Shown here piece after piece: positions 1 through 9,833 of a stretch of DNA of 63,600 nt. The position numbers were made by a program, and so were the translations under genes. The notes beneath the pieces are model-generated. The model did no database searches and was not told the DNA's origin. It was given only the letters and a program-made list of their open reading frames with translations. Source of the DNA: an uncultured Campylobacterales bacterium (GTDB lineage: Bacteria > Campylobacterota > Campylobacteria > Campylobacterales > Sulfurimonadaceae); the NCBI GenBank assembly GCA_903892995.1, contig CAITKP010000102.1:1-63600 (forward strand). The letters are read 5' to 3'. Every line of letters starts with the position of its first letter. The stretch's first letter is position 1.

Positions 1-245
1 CCCGTCTGACCGCCAAGAATCACATGATCGCCAAGCTCTGTCGATCCTGCAATACCGCATTGCGCGACAATAATAGTATGTTTGCCGACCTTCACGCCAT
101 GGGCAATATCGACTAAATTATCGATCTTGGAACCTTGACCGATTTTTGTCGCTTCAAACCGCGCACGGTCAATCGTCACACACGCCCCGATCTCCACATC
201 ATCTTCAACCACAACTGTTCCCATCTGAGGGATCTTCTCATGCCA
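1..245 (-). CDS. lpxD: LpxD-like acyltransferase fragment, foreign to the contig
   Basis: The reverse strand reads as an internal part of UDP-3-O-acylglucosamine N-acyltransferase (lipid A synthesis). Recognisable pieces, in order, are [45 protein letters not shown] and [18 protein letters not shown], typical left-handed beta-helix hexapeptide repeats. Both ends are missing: one at the window edge and one at about 243-250, where gltB begins in a different frame. GC is about 50% against about one third in the adjacent gltB. The TIDRARF..T.IG.G.KIDNLV wording resembles LpxD of Verrucomicrobia and relatives rather than Campylobacterota (inference from memory). It is most likely joined by misassembly; a recombination scar is the alternative. 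Confidence 0.8.
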
Positions 246-1672
246 TCACGGATCATTGGTTCTACAACTTGTTCAACAACTTCTTGTGTAACATTGAAAT
301 ATCTTTGTCTTTGAATAAGCTCAGCTTCATCAAAATCACATTGGCTTTTATATTGATCTTCAACATGTTCTTGAAGGTAGATCATATGTTCATTTAGCCA
401 TTTCATATATGGATTTGAACCTTTTAGATAATCATTGATCTGTTCATCTTTTAGTACTTTCCCATATTTAAGATCAAGACCTATCATCTGTCCTGATTTT
501 AAGCGCCCGCGCTCTTTGATATTTTCTTCATCAATATCGATAACACCATATTCACTTGCAATTAAAAGTGTGTCATCTTTTGTAATAATATATTTTGATG
601 GACGAAGACCATTTCTATCAAGGACACAACCAATATAGCGACCATCTGTTAAAGAGAATGCAGCTGGACCATCCCACGCTTCAAAAACTGTAGATTGGTA
701 CTCATAAAATGCACGGAGTTCGGGATCCATATGTGGAGCATTTTGCCAAGCACTTGGAATCACCGCACGAGCAGCTTTAAAGAAATCCATACCATTTACA
801 AGTAAAAACTCTAAAAAGTTGTCTGCACTCGCGCTATCTGATGATGCTGGTTGAAGGATCGGAAGGATGCGTGAAAGTTCTTCATCCGTAAACACGTCAC
901 TTTTAATCGATTCAGATTTAATCTCAACATTAAATCTATTACCTTCAACAGAGTTGATCTCACCATTATGCGCAACTGCACGAAACGGCTGAGCCAAACG
1001 CCATTCTGGAAGTGTATTTGTTGAAAATCTTTGGTGGAATAGTGCAAAAGATATTTTAAAATCTGTGTCTTGAAGATCTTTATAAAACTCTTTAATATGC
1101 GTTGGCATAACAAGACCCTTATATGATATAACTTTTGATGACATAGATGAAATATAAAAGTTTCTATCAGCTACAAGTGCATGCTCTGATTCTTTTCTAC
1201 TTAAATAAAGAAGAGCATCAAAACGTTCACTTGCCATAATGGAATTTGCAACAATAAAAAGTTGAATAATATTTGGTAAAGATGCTTTTGCTTGTTCACC
1301 AAGAGCATTTGTATCAACAGGCACATCACGAACTAAAACAACTTTGAGATCATTCTTTATACAAATCTTCTCAATCTTTTCTAATTGTTTTCTATCTTTC
1401 GTAAAAACTGTTGCAACAGCAAATTGATCAGGAAGTTCTACGTTAGCCGCCTGCGCTTGCTTACGCATAAAATCTATCGGTATAGAAAGTAAAAGTCCAC
1501 TTCCATCACCTGTTTTACCATCAGCAGCAACAGCACCACGGTGCATCATTCGCTCTAAAGCTGTAATGGCATTTTCAAGATTTTCATGCGATGCACGGTT
1601 TTTAATACTTGCAATAAGACCAAAACCACAGTTATCTTTAAAAGATCTTAATAAGTCATTATATTCCACCAT
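176..1672 (-). CDS. gltB: glutamate synthase (NADPH) large subunit, N-terminal part only
   Basis: This is the class II glutamine amidotransferase domain of GltB, which releases ammonia from glutamine for glutamate synthesis. The nucleophile region [10 protein letters not shown] is near the N-terminus, followed by [31 protein letters not shown] and [11 protein letters not shown] prefer the ATG at 1672, which has a GGAG ribosome site 7 nt upstream; an in-frame ATG at 1711 has none. Homology stops after VVEPMIRDG at about 243. The last ~22 residues to the stop at 176 are read out of frame from the foreign lpxD piece and are not GltB. A full GltB is about 1,450-1,500 residues, so two thirds are missing. 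No promoter is obvious upstream, where recO diverges. Confidence 0.9.
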
Positions 1673-1863
1673 ATGTTCACTCCAAATGTTGTAATTTTCA
1701 AACTTTCTCATCTAAATAAGAAAATTTAATCTATTTTTAAACAAACTTAGTCTATTAAAAAGAGAATTTAAGCTTTTATTATATCTACTAAAGAATTAAA
1801 AAAGGATTTAAAAGGGATAATATTTTTTCAAAAAATAAAATTCGTGTAGATTGGAAGCATTTT

Positions 1864-2539: not shown

Positions 2540-3583
2540 ATGGAAGATATAAATCATTTTTTAGCAACATATACAATTGAAATAATAGTGCTTATGGTTG
2601 CAGTAATGGCGCTGTACTTTATTGTCATTCTAAAACAAAATAAAGATCATCCAAAAGATTTGTTTATTCATGAAGAAAAAATTGAACAAAAAGCAGATCA
2701 AAAAAAGAGAATTGAAAAAGAGATTCCCTCTCCTGCCACAATAAAACCAATTCAAGAGTTACAAACTCCAAATAAAATAATTGAAAAACGTAGAGAAGTT
2801 CCTTCTCATGGTGCTATTACAAAAGAGAGTTTCACTATTTTTAAGGGATCAAAACTTCTCATAGCTGAAGACAATATCATAAATCAAAAAGTTATAAATG
2901 GGATGCTTGGAGATTCTGGCATAGAGATTATTATGGCAAACAATGGTCAAGAAGCCCTTGAAATATTGAAAGCTGATAAAGATATTTACATCGTTTTAAT
3001 GGATGCACATATGCCAATTATTGATGGTTTTGAAGCGACTCGACATATACGAGAAGACAGATCACTAGATCATCTTTTAGTTGTAGCACTAAGTGGAGAT
3101 ACCGCTGCTGATGACATCAAAAAAATGAAAAATGCTGGAATGCAAGAGTGCCTCGAAAAACCTCTCAAAATAGATAAACTTTATGATATTTTTTATGCAT
3201 ATATTGATATTGTCAATGGTGTAAAACTTAATTCGTCTGATTTTAAAACATCAAATCTCTTACATGTAAAGGAAGGGATCGAGATCTGCGGCGGTGATAT
3301 AGAACTATATAAAGAGATACTTTTTGAATTTTTAAACATGTATGCAGATGCTCATGTGAAGATAAAATCTTTTATTGCTAAAGATGATCTCAATAGTGTC
3401 AAAAAATTATTGCTTGATATCTCGGGCATCTCGGCTAATATTGGTGCGCCAAAACTTGCAGAAATCTCTACACAACTTCGTGAAACACTTAATAATGATG
3501 AAAAAAACAGCTTCATAGAAAAAGAGGAAAGATTTACACAAATCTTTTTAGCTCTATGCGCTGAAATCAAATCTTATCTTTAA
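2540..3583 (+). CDS. membrane-anchored response regulator with a degenerate Hpt-like C-terminus
   Basis: The 347-residue protein begins with one membrane segment (about residues 11-30). A charged Lys/Glu-rich linker follows, then a receiver domain (about 108-225) starting KLLIAEDNIINQKV with the phospho-acceptor Asp in VLMDAHMPIIDG and the conserved Lys in LEKPLK. The C-terminal ~100 residues resemble a histidine phosphotransfer domain around LLDISGISANIGA. Against the usual H-x-L-K-G-x-x-x-N-I-G-A, the phosphorylatable His is Leu and the Lys is Ser. There is no kinase core or DNA-binding domain. It may be a phosphate sink, docking protein or partner of a chemotaxis or histidine kinase encoded elsewhere; its target is not evident. 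An exact dispersed palindrome lies at 3260-3269. Confidence 0.8.
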   Translation: MEDINHFLATYTIEIIVLMVAVMALYFIVILKQNKDHPKDLFIHEEKIEQKADQKKRIEKEIPSPATIKPIQELQTPNKIIEKRREVPSHGAITKESFTIFKGSKLLIAEDNIINQKVINGMLGDSGIEIIMANNGQEALEILKADKDIYIVLMDAHMPIIDGFEATRHIREDRSLDHLLVVALSGDTAADDIKKMKNAGMQECLEKPLKIDKLYDIFYAYIDIVNGVKLNSSDFKTSNLLHVKEGIEICGGDIELYKEILFEFLNMYADAHVKIKSFIAKDDLNSVKKLLLDISGISANIGAPKLAEISTQLRETLNNDEKNSFIEKEERFTQIFLALCAEIKSYL

Positions 3584-5748: not shown

Positions 5749-8364
5749 ATGACAAATGAATATTTTAAATACAAAAATCTAGAGGTCTCCAAAGAGATAG
5801 CTCCTTTTATAAAGCATATGGATCAAGTTGAAAATAATAGAGAGATGTTACATGATCTCAGTAACAACTGGAATAGACTCTCTCTTTTGAGTCAATTAGG
5901 TGATGCAAGTGTAAACATGAGCGAAATAAAAGAAAACTTTACAGCCCTCTCATCAAAATTGATTGACCATCTCTCATTAGAACTTCTCAATAAAAATATA
6001 AATGAGATGAATTTTAAAGCGCAAGTAGCTGTTGATATTGTGATAAGAAACCTTTATGAAAGAAGCGCTGATATAGGTTTTTTATCTACTGATAACGATA
6101 TCAGAAACTTTTTGATTCAAAATCCGACTAAATACACCTCATCATACACATCAGAACTAACAAAAATTAAAAATAGATTTGCTGAGTATATAAATAAATA
6201 TAGTGTCTATTTCGACATAGTCCTTATGAATATCAATGGTGAAATACTTGCAAACGCTGGCACTCCTTTACAAATATCCAAGTCGCATGATAGTTTGATT
6301 AAAGAGGTATTAACAACAAACAAAGAGTTTGTAGAGACCTATAAGTATCATGATTTTCTTCCAGATCATAAAAATTCTCTTGTGTACTCCTATAAAGTCA
6401 CAACTTCAAATGAGCATCATTCAGACACTTTGGGTGTTTTATGTCTCTGTTTTAAATTTCAAGATGAGATGGATGGAATTTTTAATAATCTCGTCAACAA
6501 CACCAAAAAAGAGGCAATTACACTATTAGATCATGAGGGGAAAGTTATCGCTACAAGCGATCCATATCAAATTCCTCTTGATGCAAAACTTGAATTGATA
6601 ACAAATGACAAATATAAGATCGTAACCTTTGGAGGAAGAGACTATATTGCAAAAAGTAAAAAAACAAACGGTTATCAAAACTATTTTGGACTTGGATGGT
6701 ATGGCCATATTATGATACCGATTGAACACGCTTTTAGTGAGGAGCAAACAAATAGTTTTGAAATATCTGAGGATCTGCTTCTTTCAATACTTCAAAATGG
6801 AGAAAGATTTAGTGATGCTTTAAAAAGTATTCCCCTCCAAGCAAATAACATTCAAAAAAATCTCAATAGAGCAATTTGGAATGGAACAATCAAGCAGGGA
6901 AATATCCAAAATCAAAATAAACAATTCTCAAAATCACTTATGCAAGAGATTCGACAAACTGGTGAAAGCACAAAAAGTATCATCGGTTCTTCAATCGCAA
7001 ATCTTACAAAAACAATCATCCTAGGGGATAGTGTTTTTTATGCTGATCTTATTGTTGATATCATGGATAGAAATCTTTATGAAAGAGCAAACGACTGTAG
7101 ATGGTGGGCTCTCACCTCAGAGTTTAAAAAAATTCTGCAAGAGGGAAATCTCAATGCAAATGACACAAAACGGATGTGTGAGATTTTAAAATATATAAAT
7201 GAACTCTACACTGTTTATACAAACCTTTTTATTTACGATAAAAATGGGATTATTGTAGCAATGTCAAATGAAAAAGAATTCAATCTTTTAAACACTAAGC
7301 TCTCAACATCATGGGTTACACAAACTCTTCAACTGAGTGATTCTTCAAAATATTGTGTAAGCCCATTTGCACATACTCCTTTATATAACAATGAACATAC
7401 TTATATCTACAATGCTGCGATCACAGACCAGCAAAATGAAAATATTTTAGGTGGAATTGCAATTGTATTTGATGCTAAAGAGCAGTTTTCAAATATGATA
7501 GAAGAAGCGCTTCCAAAAAAAAGTGATGGAACACTCAAAGAGGGTGTTTTTGCGACTATTGCAACCAAAGAGATGATGATCATCGCATCAAGTTATGATA
7601 AACATATTGTTGGAACCCATCTTGATATCGATAGCTCCTATTTTACTTTAAATCCTGGTGAATCCACGAGTGAAATCATCATCTATGAGGAAAAATATTA
7701 TGCATTAGGAGTCAAATGTTCAAAAGGATATCGAGAATATAAAAGCGAAACTGATGATTATGTCAATAATGTGTACACCCTTTTCTTCTCCTATATCAGT
7801 GATATAAAAGATTCAACTCTCCAAGAGATCAATGGATTCTCATTTGAGAATGAGATCAGCTTTGAAACAGGTACGCAAACAAAAGATATCGCTACTTTTA
7901 TGATCGGTAATCAATGGCTTGGAATTGACGCACAAATAATAGTAGAAGCAGTCAGTGTCAATGAACTAAAAAGTACAGTTAATATTGATCCAAATCACCA
8001 TTTTAAAGGGACTATTATCCATGAAGATAGAGCTGTCATGGTTATAGATATCAAAAACTTTTTACAAGAGAAGGTGAGTGACCCTTATCAAGAGATTATC
8101 ATCATCAAATATGGTAATACATCTCACAACTATCTTGGAATATTTGTAAATACTTTAGAGTATATCCATGGCATATCCAATGAAAATATCAAAACACTTC
8201 ATAATGATATTATCGGAAGCTCTACACTTGTAGAGAGTATCGTTTTTCCAGAGGATCAAAGGTCAACAAAAGAGGTTCTCTCAATCCTCTCTATTGAGAA
8301 AATCATATCTGAACTAGTCAAGCCCCAAATAAATAAAATGATTCATAAGCCAATTAAACACTAA
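5749..8364 (+). CDS. tandem Cache-like sensor protein with C-terminal CheW domain
   Basis: The 871-residue protein has no signal peptide or membrane segment. It contains two copies of one module. Each starts with a helix-rich segment carrying RNLYERSADIGF (about residue 96) or RNLYERANDCRWW (about 438), followed by a Cache/PAS-like beta region (VYFDIVLMNINGEILANAG; VYTNLFIYDKNGIIVA). Residues about 713-850 are a CheW-like SH3 domain (IATFMIGNQWLGIDA ... VMVIDIKNFL), which normally couples receptors to CheA. There is no HAMP or methyl-accepting coiled coil. It is probably a cytoplasmic sensor or scaffold feeding the chemotaxis array; ligand unknown. It is monocistronic, followed by a short hairpin and minC. 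Confidence 0.78.
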   Translation: MTNEYFKYKNLEVSKEIAPFIKHMDQVENNREMLHDLSNNWNRLSLLSQLGDASVNMSEIKENFTALSSKLIDHLSLELLNKNINEMNFKAQVAVDIVIRNLYERSADIGFLSTDNDIRNFLIQNPTKYTSSYTSELTKIKNRFAEYINKYSVYFDIVLMNINGEILANAGTPLQISKSHDSLIKEVLTTNKEFVETYKYHDFLPDHKNSLVYSYKVTTSNEHHSDTLGVLCLCFKFQDEMDGIFNNLVNNTKKEAITLLDHEGKVIATSDPYQIPLDAKLELITNDKYKIVTFGGRDYIAKSKKTNGYQNYFGLGWYGHIMIPIEHAFSEEQTNSFEISEDLLLSILQNGERFSDALKSIPLQANNIQKNLNRAIWNGTIKQGNIQNQNKQFSKSLMQEIRQTGESTKSIIGSSIANLTKTIILGDSVFYADLIVDIMDRNLYERANDCRWWALTSEFKKILQEGNLNANDTKRMCEILKYINELYTVYTNLFIYDKNGIIVAMSNEKEFNLLNTKLSTSWVTQTLQLSDSSKYCVSPFAHTPLYNNEHTYIYNAAITDQQNENILGGIAIVFDAKEQFSNMIEEALPKKSDGTLKEGVFATIATKEMMIIASSYDKHIVGTHLDIDSSYFTLNPGESTSEIIIYEEKYYALGVKCSKGYREYKSETDDYVNNVYTLFFSYISDIKDSTLQEINGFSFENEISFETGTQTKDIATFMIGNQWLGIDAQIIVEAVSVNELKSTVNIDPNHHFKGTIIHEDRAVMVIDIKNFLQEKVSDPYQEIIIIKYGNTSHNYLGIFVNTLEYIHGISNENIKTLHNDIIGSSTLVESIVFPEDQRSTKEVLSILSIEKIISELVKPQINKMIHKPIKH

Positions 8365-8415: not shown

Positions 8416-9033
8416 TTGCGTAATAAACAGTATTCAGTCAAAGTTTTTGAAACGACTTTAACCGATGATAATCAATTTATCTCTTTTTTTAATACAAACT
8501 ATAAGCTTTTTAAAGATTATCTTATTGTAATCCATGGAGATCTCAGTCCACAAATTTTAGCTTTTTTACAAGAGAAAAAGCTTCACTATTTGAACAATGC
8601 CATACTTCCTAAAAATCAGGGACGCAAAGCACTCGAAGAGCAGATTGCCGTTCAGCAAGAGCAAACACAGCAAGTTGAACAAGAGCTTCTCAAACTTTCA
8701 GATAGACTACAAAATAATCTCACAGTCAAAGATACACTTATTCGAAGCGGTCACGATATCAAAGTCGATGGTGATCTTCTTTTACTCAACCGTGTAAACA
8801 GTGGAGCAACTTTACATGTAGAGGGTAATTTAATCGTAACCCAGCTTGTAGAGGGAGCAATTCGTTGTTATGGAAACTTCATGATGCTCAAAGCATCACC
8901 AAAAGCGAACATCGTTTTTCATGATGTAATCGTTGATAATGTTTTACTCAAAGAGAGACTCAACAGAGTAGAACTCAAAGATAATGAAATTAGAATCACA
9001 CCAGTATTAAAGGAAACAACTTGGGTAATGTAA
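8416..9033 (+). CDS. minC: septum site-determining protein MinC
   Basis: MinC blocks FtsZ polymerisation away from midcell and is recruited to the membrane by MinD. The 205-residue protein has an N-terminal domain (about 1-75), a Gln/Glu-rich linker (QQEQTQQVEQELL), and the beta-helix C-terminal domain with GDLLLLNRVNSGATLHVEGN and GAIRCYGNFMMLKA. The start is TTG at 8416, fixed by AAAAAAGGAG just upstream. Its 3' end overlaps minD by 13 bp, so translation is probably coupled. A near copy of the dispersed palindrome (8812-8821) encodes TLHV. Confidence 0.9.
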   Translation: MRNKQYSVKVFETTLTDDNQFISFFNTNYKLFKDYLIVIHGDLSPQILAFLQEKKLHYLNNAILPKNQGRKALEEQIAVQQEQTQQVEQELLKLSDRLQNNLTVKDTLIRSGHDIKVDGDLLLLNRVNSGATLHVEGNLIVTQLVEGAIRCYGNFMMLKASPKANIVFHDVIVDNVLLKERLNRVELKDNEIRITPVLKETTWVM

Positions 9034-9833
9034 TAGCAGTCATCAGTGGAAAAGGCGGTGTAGGTAAGACTACAACAACAGCAAATATCGGTCTTGGTAT
9101 TGCAATGAACGGTAAAAGATGTGTTGTTGTCGATTTTGATATCGGGCAGCGAAATCTTGATATGATTTTAGGGCTTGAAAACCGTGTTGTGTATGATATC
9201 ATCCAAGTTATGGACGAAGAAGCAACTCTCTCACAAGCGCTTATTAAAAGTAAAATGAATGACAAACTTTACTTTCTAGCAGCATCACAAACAAAAGATA
9301 AAACTGTTTTAAGTTCAGAAAAGATCTCTAAACTTATTGTCACGTTAAGAGAGGATTTTGATTATATTATTCTTGATGCTCCAGCGGGTATTGAGAGTGG
9401 TTATGAGCATACGATAGAGTTTGCAGATGCAGCTATCATCGTTGTCAATCCTGAAGTCTCTTCTATCCGTGATGCAGATAGAGCGATCGGAATTTTAGAC
9501 TCAAAATCACAAAGAGTAAAAGATGGAGCAGAGGTTGCAAAATATCTTATCATCAACAGAATCGATGCAAAAATGGTTCAAAGCGGAGAGATGCTCAGCA
9601 GTGATGATATTTTAGATATCTTAGGAATCAACCTTCTTGGAAAAGTTCCAGAAGATAGAGGGATCATTGACGCTTCCAACCAAGGTAAGCCAATTATTCT
9701 CAATCCATCATCAGCAGCGGGTCAAGCATATAAACGCATCGCTTCTCGTCTTTGCGGGGAAGATGTAGATATGCCAGAACTAGAGATTGTTCAAGGCGGT
9801 TTCTTACAAAAGATAAAGGGGATTTTTAAATAA
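9021..9833 (+). CDS. minD: septum site-determining protein MinD
   Basis: A membrane-associated ParA/MinD ATPase that positions the division site with MinC and MinE. The deviant Walker A is GKGGVGKTTTTAN near the N-terminus, and IILDAPAGIE contains the catalytic Asp. The C-terminus (GFLQKIKGIFK) is the usual amphipathic membrane-targeting helix. The 270-residue length is typical. The start is TTG at 9021 inside the end of minC, with AAAGG upstream; the stop overlaps the minE ATG (TAATG). Confidence 0.97.
   Translation: MGNVIAVISGKGGVGKTTTTANIGLGIAMNGKRCVVVDFDIGQRNLDMILGLENRVVYDIIQVMDEEATLSQALIKSKMNDKLYFLAASQTKDKTVLSSEKISKLIVTLREDFDYIILDAPAGIESGYEHTIEFADAAIIVVNPEVSSIRDADRAIGILDSKSQRVKDGAEVAKYLIINRIDAKMVQSGEMLSSDDILDILGINLLGKVPEDRGIIDASNQGKPIILNPSSAAGQAYKRIASRLCGEDVDMPELEIVQGGFLQKIKGIFK

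Follow-up and report, generated by a model that had tools for sequence, protein, structure and literature searches.

The window analysed here, a stretch of 63,600 nucleotides from an uncultured Campylobacterales bacterium, contains a gene that raises the question of whether a soluble sensor can enter the chemotaxis machinery through a CheW domain of its own, and what such a sensor would report. In a sequence-only reading, the product had been described as two homologous modules with Cache/PAS-like regions, fused to CheW and lacking both a membrane segment and a methyl-accepting (MCP) signalling domain. We propose, with modest confidence, that the protein is a cytosolic sensor-adaptor passing an intracellular signal, in many lineages one tied to the nitrogen-fixing state, into chemosensory arrays.

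A soluble protein with two sensor modules and a CheW domain

The open reading frame starts with ATG and encodes a cytosolic (dCache)2-CheW protein of 871 residues (Table 1; the stop codon is included in the coordinates). The two sensor halves are homologous (residues 1-370 against 371-710 in blastp, E = 2e-9, 25% identity), and each contains one (R)NLYER motif (residues 100-105 and 441-446), in agreement with the earlier description. The CheW end was likewise recovered: PF01584 matches residues 715-855 with 38.5 bits (E 1.1e-9) against a curated cut-off of 23.5, and scores 40 to 69 bits in three full-length homologues. In Pfam searches with E up to 1, the window protein matched neither the MCP signalling domain (PF00015) nor the receiver domain (PF00072), and no CheR-type Pfam family was matched. 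Pfam Cache_WalK matches residues 481-572 with 24.4 bits, below its cut-off of 27. Pfam results for Cache models are mixed among the homologues: L053 and L080 exceed the Cache_WalK cut-off, L044 and L046 exceed that of dCache_1, and L134 scores 43.1 against a cut-off of 45.

The highest 19-residue Kyte-Doolittle mean in the window protein is 1.23, compared with 3.22 in an MCP encoded in the same window, and we found neither a membrane segment nor an export signal, as the sequence-only reading had held for the membrane segment. Across the family, 23 of the 124 full-length sequences reach a 19-residue mean of at least 1.6. Five of the six highest peaks lie within conserved folded regions, and the remaining one is the N-terminus of L065, where the start codon may have been wrongly chosen. 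The window protein is read as a soluble protein with two sensor modules and a CheW domain, and its gene is far from a chance reading frame, since an uninterrupted ORF is conserved in several phyla. Two trivial explanations were rejected: an ordinary chemoreceptor with an overlooked signalling domain, given that MCPsignal was not matched, and a frame error fusing two genes, given the full-length intact homologues in several phyla.

Table 1. Positions of the (dCache)2-CheW gene and its parts in the window.
Feature	Position	Strand	Basis
Whole gene	5749..8364	+	ORF, Pfam, AlphaFold2
Module 1 helices, residues 25-113	5821..6087	+	AlphaFold2 secondary structure
Motif 1 RNLYERSADIGFL, residues 100-112	6046..6084	+	Family alignment
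Module 1 dCache domain (predicted), residues 154-324	6208..6720	+	AlphaFold2, VIA-align
Linker (with WNG 377-379) and helices of module 2, residues 341-453	6769..7107	+	AlphaFold2, alignment
Motif 2 DRNLYERANDCRWWAL, residues 440-455	7066..7113	+	Family alignment
Module 2 dCache domain (predicted), residues 490-685	7216..7803	+	AlphaFold2, DctB match, sub-threshold Cache_WalK
CheW domain, residues 711-857	7879..8319	+	Pfam, AlphaFold2, structure matches

Predicted fold of the sensor modules

An AlphaFold2 model of the whole protein, built on an alignment of 43 sequences, has a mean pLDDT of 82.8 and a pTM of 0.75. Helices 25-51 and 57-113 lead into the first predicted dCache domain, and helices 341-384 and 391-453 lead into the second, which is followed by the CheW fold. 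Both NLYER motifs sit on the long helices that enter the dCache folds (57-113 and 391-453).

We compared the model with solved dCache structures by Foldseek and VIA-align. In VIA-align, module 2 matched the sensor domains of DctB (3e4o_A, Z 18.0, rmsd 2.9 over 216 residues; 3by9_A, Z 18.0), CitA (1p0z_A, Z 16.6) and DcuS (3by8, Z 14.6). Module 1 matched PctA (5ltx_A, Z 13.7 over residues 71-331) and 9rc2 (Z 13.8 over residues 81-332), and the C-terminus matched CheW structures (6s1k_C, Z 16.5, rmsd 3.2 over 141 residues; 2ch4_Y, Z 16.2). A sequence search of the PDB with the whole protein gave no match; a search with the CheW alignment did. Each module of the model shows the dCache features, namely a long N-terminal helix and two PAS-like subdomains. 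Thus each module is itself predicted to be a double Cache, with about four PAS-like subdomains in the protein. The sequence-only reading had named structure prediction of both modules as a check, with the lack of a Cache/PAS fold as the result that would speak against it; Cache folds appeared in both modules. The other result named as adverse, an overlooked export signal or membrane segment, did not emerge either. Its label of a double-Cache protein was right about the Cache folds and needs a small correction in the number of Caches per module.

The histidine kinases DctB, CitA and DcuS and the chemoreceptors PctA and Tlp3 share this predicted dCache fold. However, their dCache domains are extracytoplasmic and are connected through a membrane segment to a kinase or an MCP, whereas the modules of the window protein are soluble, doubled and joined to CheW.

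Distribution and conservation of the family

A scan of genome contigs found relatives in Campylobacterota, beta- and gammaproteobacteria, Deferribacterota and Verrucomicrobiota, at least 552 in all, of which the best 80 were kept, nearly all of them full length. The same architecture, which the earlier reading had wished to see sought in other genomes, is thus widespread across several phyla. That reading had also called the architecture unusual. It is unusual as a concept but not as a rarity, since at least 552 relatives exist in genomes. An oddity confined to Campylobacterota was ruled out by the relatives in other phyla. A phage or mobile-element gene was likewise rejected: 50,697 phage records gave no match, and of 72,556 plasmid records only 9 matched, all weakly and over part of the protein. 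We also noted a Burkholderia stagnalis plasmid gene (L182:3758-4795, 346 aa), annotated as a methyl-accepting chemotaxis protein, whose product has a very short MCP signalling piece (22-72) and, after it, a Cache region of the (dCache)2-CheW family that scores below threshold. Two family genes, L010:222-2935 in Campylobacterota and L127:8995-11610 in Glaciecola sp. UBA2563, are each interrupted by a frame shift or a stop codon, which leaves two ORFs.

A homologue is present in 60 of 397 Campylobacterota genomes (E up to 1e-10), either full length (about 870 aa) or as a short form of about 630-700 aa that has the two modules and lacks CheW. CheW was absent from all 12 shorter homologues examined. 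The short forms L044:5982-7979, L040:2925-4817 and L046:5943-7919 encode soluble proteins with two dCache-type modules, and in the two short forms scanned by Pfam neither CheW nor another output domain was found. L042 is the one short-form locus in which a CheW-containing, CheV-like gene lies two genes upstream.

Conservation of the sensor part was tallied at 45 positions picked from the conserved columns of 124 full-length sequences; 35 of these positions are identical in all 124, so the sensor modules appear to be under stronger constraint than the CheW part. The invariant patterns include RNL-ER-AD in module 1, RN-YER-D-RWW in module 2, the WNG of the linker (Table 1) and GYRE at 660-663. 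Within motif 1, R100, N101, L102, E104, R105, A107, D108, F111 and L112 are identical in 124/124; within motif 2, W452 and W453 are identical in 124/124 and C450 is found in 120/124.

These patterns bear on the idea that the protein is a structural CheW variant, an array scaffold or localiser rather than a sensor. CheW-like domains fused to non-sensory parts do exist, as in ParP, whose C-terminus integrates into array core units and which tethers arrays to a pole anchor (PMC5706961). Like the proposed sensor-adaptor, ParP is a non-receptor protein that enters the array; it differs in that the consulted part of PMC5706961 describes no sensor part. We regard a scaffold role for the window protein as very improbable, for its sensor modules are far better conserved than its CheW part, and CheW rather than the modules is what the short forms lack, the opposite of what a scaffold would predict.

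The CheW domain and the chemotaxis machinery

We then investigated the CheW part. G754, which aligns to G57 of Escherichia coli CheW, is identical in 124/124 sequences. On the other hand, the canonical LRG turn has been lost: an arginine at the position of E. coli R62, which we take to be the receptor-contact arginine of this turn, is found in 14/124, and the following glycine in 22/124. The window protein has E-D at these two positions. Among the other CheW domains of the same genome, seven of the eight examined have R-G at the turn, and the eighth belongs to an 803-aa frame that also bears a CheA dimerisation domain. The loss of the LRG turn suggests that the CheW domain may dock in the ring in a way other than through the usual receptor contact.

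The genome of the window encodes 10 CheW-type domains and 16 MCP signalling domains. CheA (PF02895) was found in 79 of the 80 carriers examined (of 133 carriers, short-form carriers included), the exception being G430. In 270 genomes of one proteobacterial order, 194 have CheA, including 32 of 33 carriers compared with 162 of 237 non-carriers (Fisher p 3e-4). No family gene was found in a che operon among the loci examined.

The main rival to a sensor-adaptor is that the CheW-like domain has left chemotaxis: the protein would be a cytosolic sensor whose SH3-like CheW fold binds another partner, perhaps a regulator of nitrogen fixation, and which governs nitrogenase or the expression of nif genes. 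The lost LRG turn, the absence from che operons and the natural short forms without CheW are consistent with such a departure. Nevertheless, we consider it rather unlikely, as CheA accompanies the gene in nearly all carriers, with the difference just given for one order, and as the CheW fold and its invariant glycine are retained.

Co-occurrence with nitrogen fixation genes

PF00148, the nifDK-type family, also matches subunits of chlorophyll-synthesis enzymes, and "nif-positive" here therefore means possession of nifDK-type genes and not proven diazotrophy. With E up to 1e-30, PF00148 is found in 77 of the 397 Campylobacterota genomes, namely in 45 of 60 carriers of the (dCache)2-CheW family and in 32 of 337 non-carriers. 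By family, the PF00148-positive carriers are 19/19 in f1, 11/11 in f10, 13/24 in f7 and 2/6 in f2 and f6 together. The hypergeometric p of 1e-25 over the 397 genomes ignores phylogeny, and we do not rely on it. A closer comparison is provided by genus g2, where the gene is present in 8 of 12 nif-positive genomes and in none of 17 nif-negative genomes (Fisher p 1e-4); nif-negative counts are those of the genomes listed, 20 for family f1 and 17 for genus g2.

The association extends beyond Campylobacterota, where 42 of 50 carriers have PF00148 (50 of 80 loci covered). Within the 270-genome order, nif-positive genomes make up 19 of 33 carriers and 23 of 237 non-carriers (p 1.5e-9). Here a genome was counted as nif-positive if it had at least two PF00148 matches or a single match below 1e-100, which applied to 42 genomes; single weaker matches, that of carrier G430 among them, were dropped. 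Carriers are thus enriched for nifDK-type genes, an association that the earlier reading of the window had overlooked.

The enrichment could also reflect a shared lifestyle. Free-living, motile, microaerophilic and metabolically broad bacteria might retain both traits, so that the protein would be a chemotaxis sensor-adaptor for a general signal such as oxygen, redox or organic acids, with no further link to nif. Carriers without PF00148 fit this explanation: 8/50 outside Campylobacterota, Methylovorus and Methylobacillus among them, 11/24 in f7 and 14/33 in the 270-genome order. Such carriers without nif also speak against the control of nitrogenase or nif expression considered above. The contrast within genus g2, however, controls for much of the phylogeny and argues against shared lifestyle as the only link, an explanation that we think rather unlikely.

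Genetic loci of the family genes

Of 123 family genes, 19 have nif genes no more than 10 kb away; among the 70 flanked on each side by 5 kb or more of sequence, the count is 14. The family gene is placed between nifDK and nifEN in L150 and L175, comes after nifHDK in L163, and has nifB, nifS and nifX-type genes nearby in L164; further copies within nif clusters are those of L152 and L134. In L079, the family gene starts about 60 bp after a same-strand NifA-like gene (named by eye). In the window's own clade no copy lies in a nif cluster, and most family genes are likewise outside. In a tree of the 124 sequences (quick method, midpoint root), nif location requires 10 changes, at least nine of them forced by well-supported branches, against a mean of 18 after shuffling. 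Placement in nif clusters is therefore clustered on the tree, yet was gained or lost several times.

As a positional control, family genes were compared with the CheA positions listed from the same genomes: 5 of 19 family genes have a PF00148 hit on their contig at a distance of up to 25 kb, and none of these CheA positions does. This comparison, read by eye in the 270-genome order, is weak. The p-values for adjacency rested on guessed background rates of 2% and 5%.

The repeated nif-cluster location, together with the L079 copy, favours the rival in which the CheW-like domain serves a nitrogen-fixation regulator. It counts against shared lifestyle, which alone would leave nif-cluster placement in several lineages unexplained, while the window copy, away from nif between htpG and the min genes, fits shared lifestyle.

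A simple -24/-12 score of at least 10 was used to scan for sigma-54 sites upstream of up to 124 family genes, those with less than 200 upstream bases being skipped. Such sites precede 11 family genes (about 8 independent), compared with 24 of 1569 background ORFs from the same loci, and none was found at this score upstream of the window gene or the 19 nif-located copies. The apparent excess is suggestive at most, and we do not count it in favour of any reading.

The window gene has htpG on one side and a minC/minD pair on the other; close relatives share the recO-htpG side. Between recO and htpG, a gene at window positions 2540-3583 (plus strand) encodes a 347-aa protein whose N-terminus is hydrophobic and which contains a response-regulator domain and weakly matches Hpt; it is kept in the close relatives L059 and L060. 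Directly downstream of the (dCache)2-CheW gene, positions 8416-9833 (plus strand) contain a minC-like gene and then a MinD/ParA-type gene. The first is below the Pfam cut-off for MinC_C but is matched by several MinC models of NCBIfam; the pair is not kept in L059 or L060. At positions 176-1711 (minus strand), a 511-aa ORF resembles, by eye, the N-terminal third of glutamate synthase and stops near the contig end. The gene at this place in L059 and L060 is 1485-1489 aa long, and a frame break or assembly error in the window is likely. In Campylobacterota nif clusters, ClpX-like genes (by eye; L080:7830-9041 and L066:10940-12172) are found close to nifS or nifX-type genes.

Proposed function

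As a sensor-adaptor, the protein would use its two dCache modules, carried on long helices, to bind a small molecule inside the cell or to monitor the cell's metabolic state, and its C-terminal CheW domain would dock it onto the CheA/CheW rings of the chemosensory array. The output of the array would then shift with the internal state without a dedicated chemoreceptor, presumably affecting swimming. The nif association suggests that in many lineages the signal would be tied to the nitrogen-fixing state, for example to carbon/nitrogen or redox status. This reading draws on the architecture, the predicted fold, the conservation of the sensor, the co-occurrence with CheA and nifDK-type genes and the repeated placement in nif clusters. 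Counted against it are the loss of the LRG turn, the majority of copies outside nif clusters, the carriers without PF00148, the lack of a che operon, the CheW-less short homologues, the absence of CheA in G430 and the lack of a sigma-54 site at the window gene.

A narrower version, doubtful in our view and put forward tentatively, is that the tandem cytosolic dCache modules read a metabolite of nitrogen/carbon status and signal through a specialised CheW to CheA, so that diazotrophs would steer by their own metabolism. The closest structural matches of module 2 are sensors of dicarboxylates and citrate, which makes 2-oxoglutarate or a C4-dicarboxylate a speculative candidate ligand.

Relation to known systems

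CheV is an adaptor with its own regulatory input, consisting of CheW and a receiver domain. The input of CheV is phosphorylation of that receiver domain, whereas the window protein has no PF00072 match.

The principle of a soluble sensor coupled through CheW has a precedent in CheWS of Treponema denticola, which comprises CheW and a CheR-like SAM sensor and sits in the array (Muok et al. 2023, PMC10653840); here and below, statements on cited papers refer to the portions consulted. CheWS and the window protein are both soluble CheW proteins, and the former senses an intracellular molecule, as we propose for the latter. They differ in that CheWS has a single CheR-like domain C-terminal to CheW, while the family described here has two dCache modules N-terminal to it, occurs in other phyla and is linked to nif. 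The same paper proposes that chemotaxis signalling can run through CheW and bypass inputs from chemoreceptors, and reports 30 CheW architectures that had not been described, 12 of them with input domains. The (dCache)2-CheW architecture may be one of these 30 (PMC10653840, Fig. S10); it may equally have been missed by the count, because the Cache parts of the window protein are below the Pfam cut-offs.

In the energy taxis system CetABC/CetZ of Campylobacter jejuni, CetZ is described as a Tlp sensor that is cytoplasmic and has two PAS domains; CetB and CetC signal with CetA (Tlp9) (PMC3558505). These are also intracellular PAS sensors acting through CheA; however, none is described as CheW-linked in the portion of PMC3558505 considered here. 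For Azospirillum brasilense, a link between nitrogen metabolism and chemotaxis has been reported for CheA1 and CheA4 (PMC8561660), and a nif-tied signal would fit these reports. The genes mcpA and aer have been reported in a nif-fix cluster (PMC3912193), and are of another type than (dCache)2-CheW. Our searches of the open-licence PMC literature gave no description of the (dCache)2-CheW architecture or its nif link, nor any mention of the family in the portions seen of PMC9321776, PMC10782961 and PMC3916325.

If the sensor-adaptor function is true, chemotaxis in many diazotrophs would have a direct intracellular input that bypasses chemoreceptors and is in places encoded inside the nif cluster, and the link between nitrogen metabolism and chemotaxis would become testable at one protein. 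The cytosolic use of dCache would then be the property of a conserved family in several phyla, largely missed by standard Pfam cut-offs.
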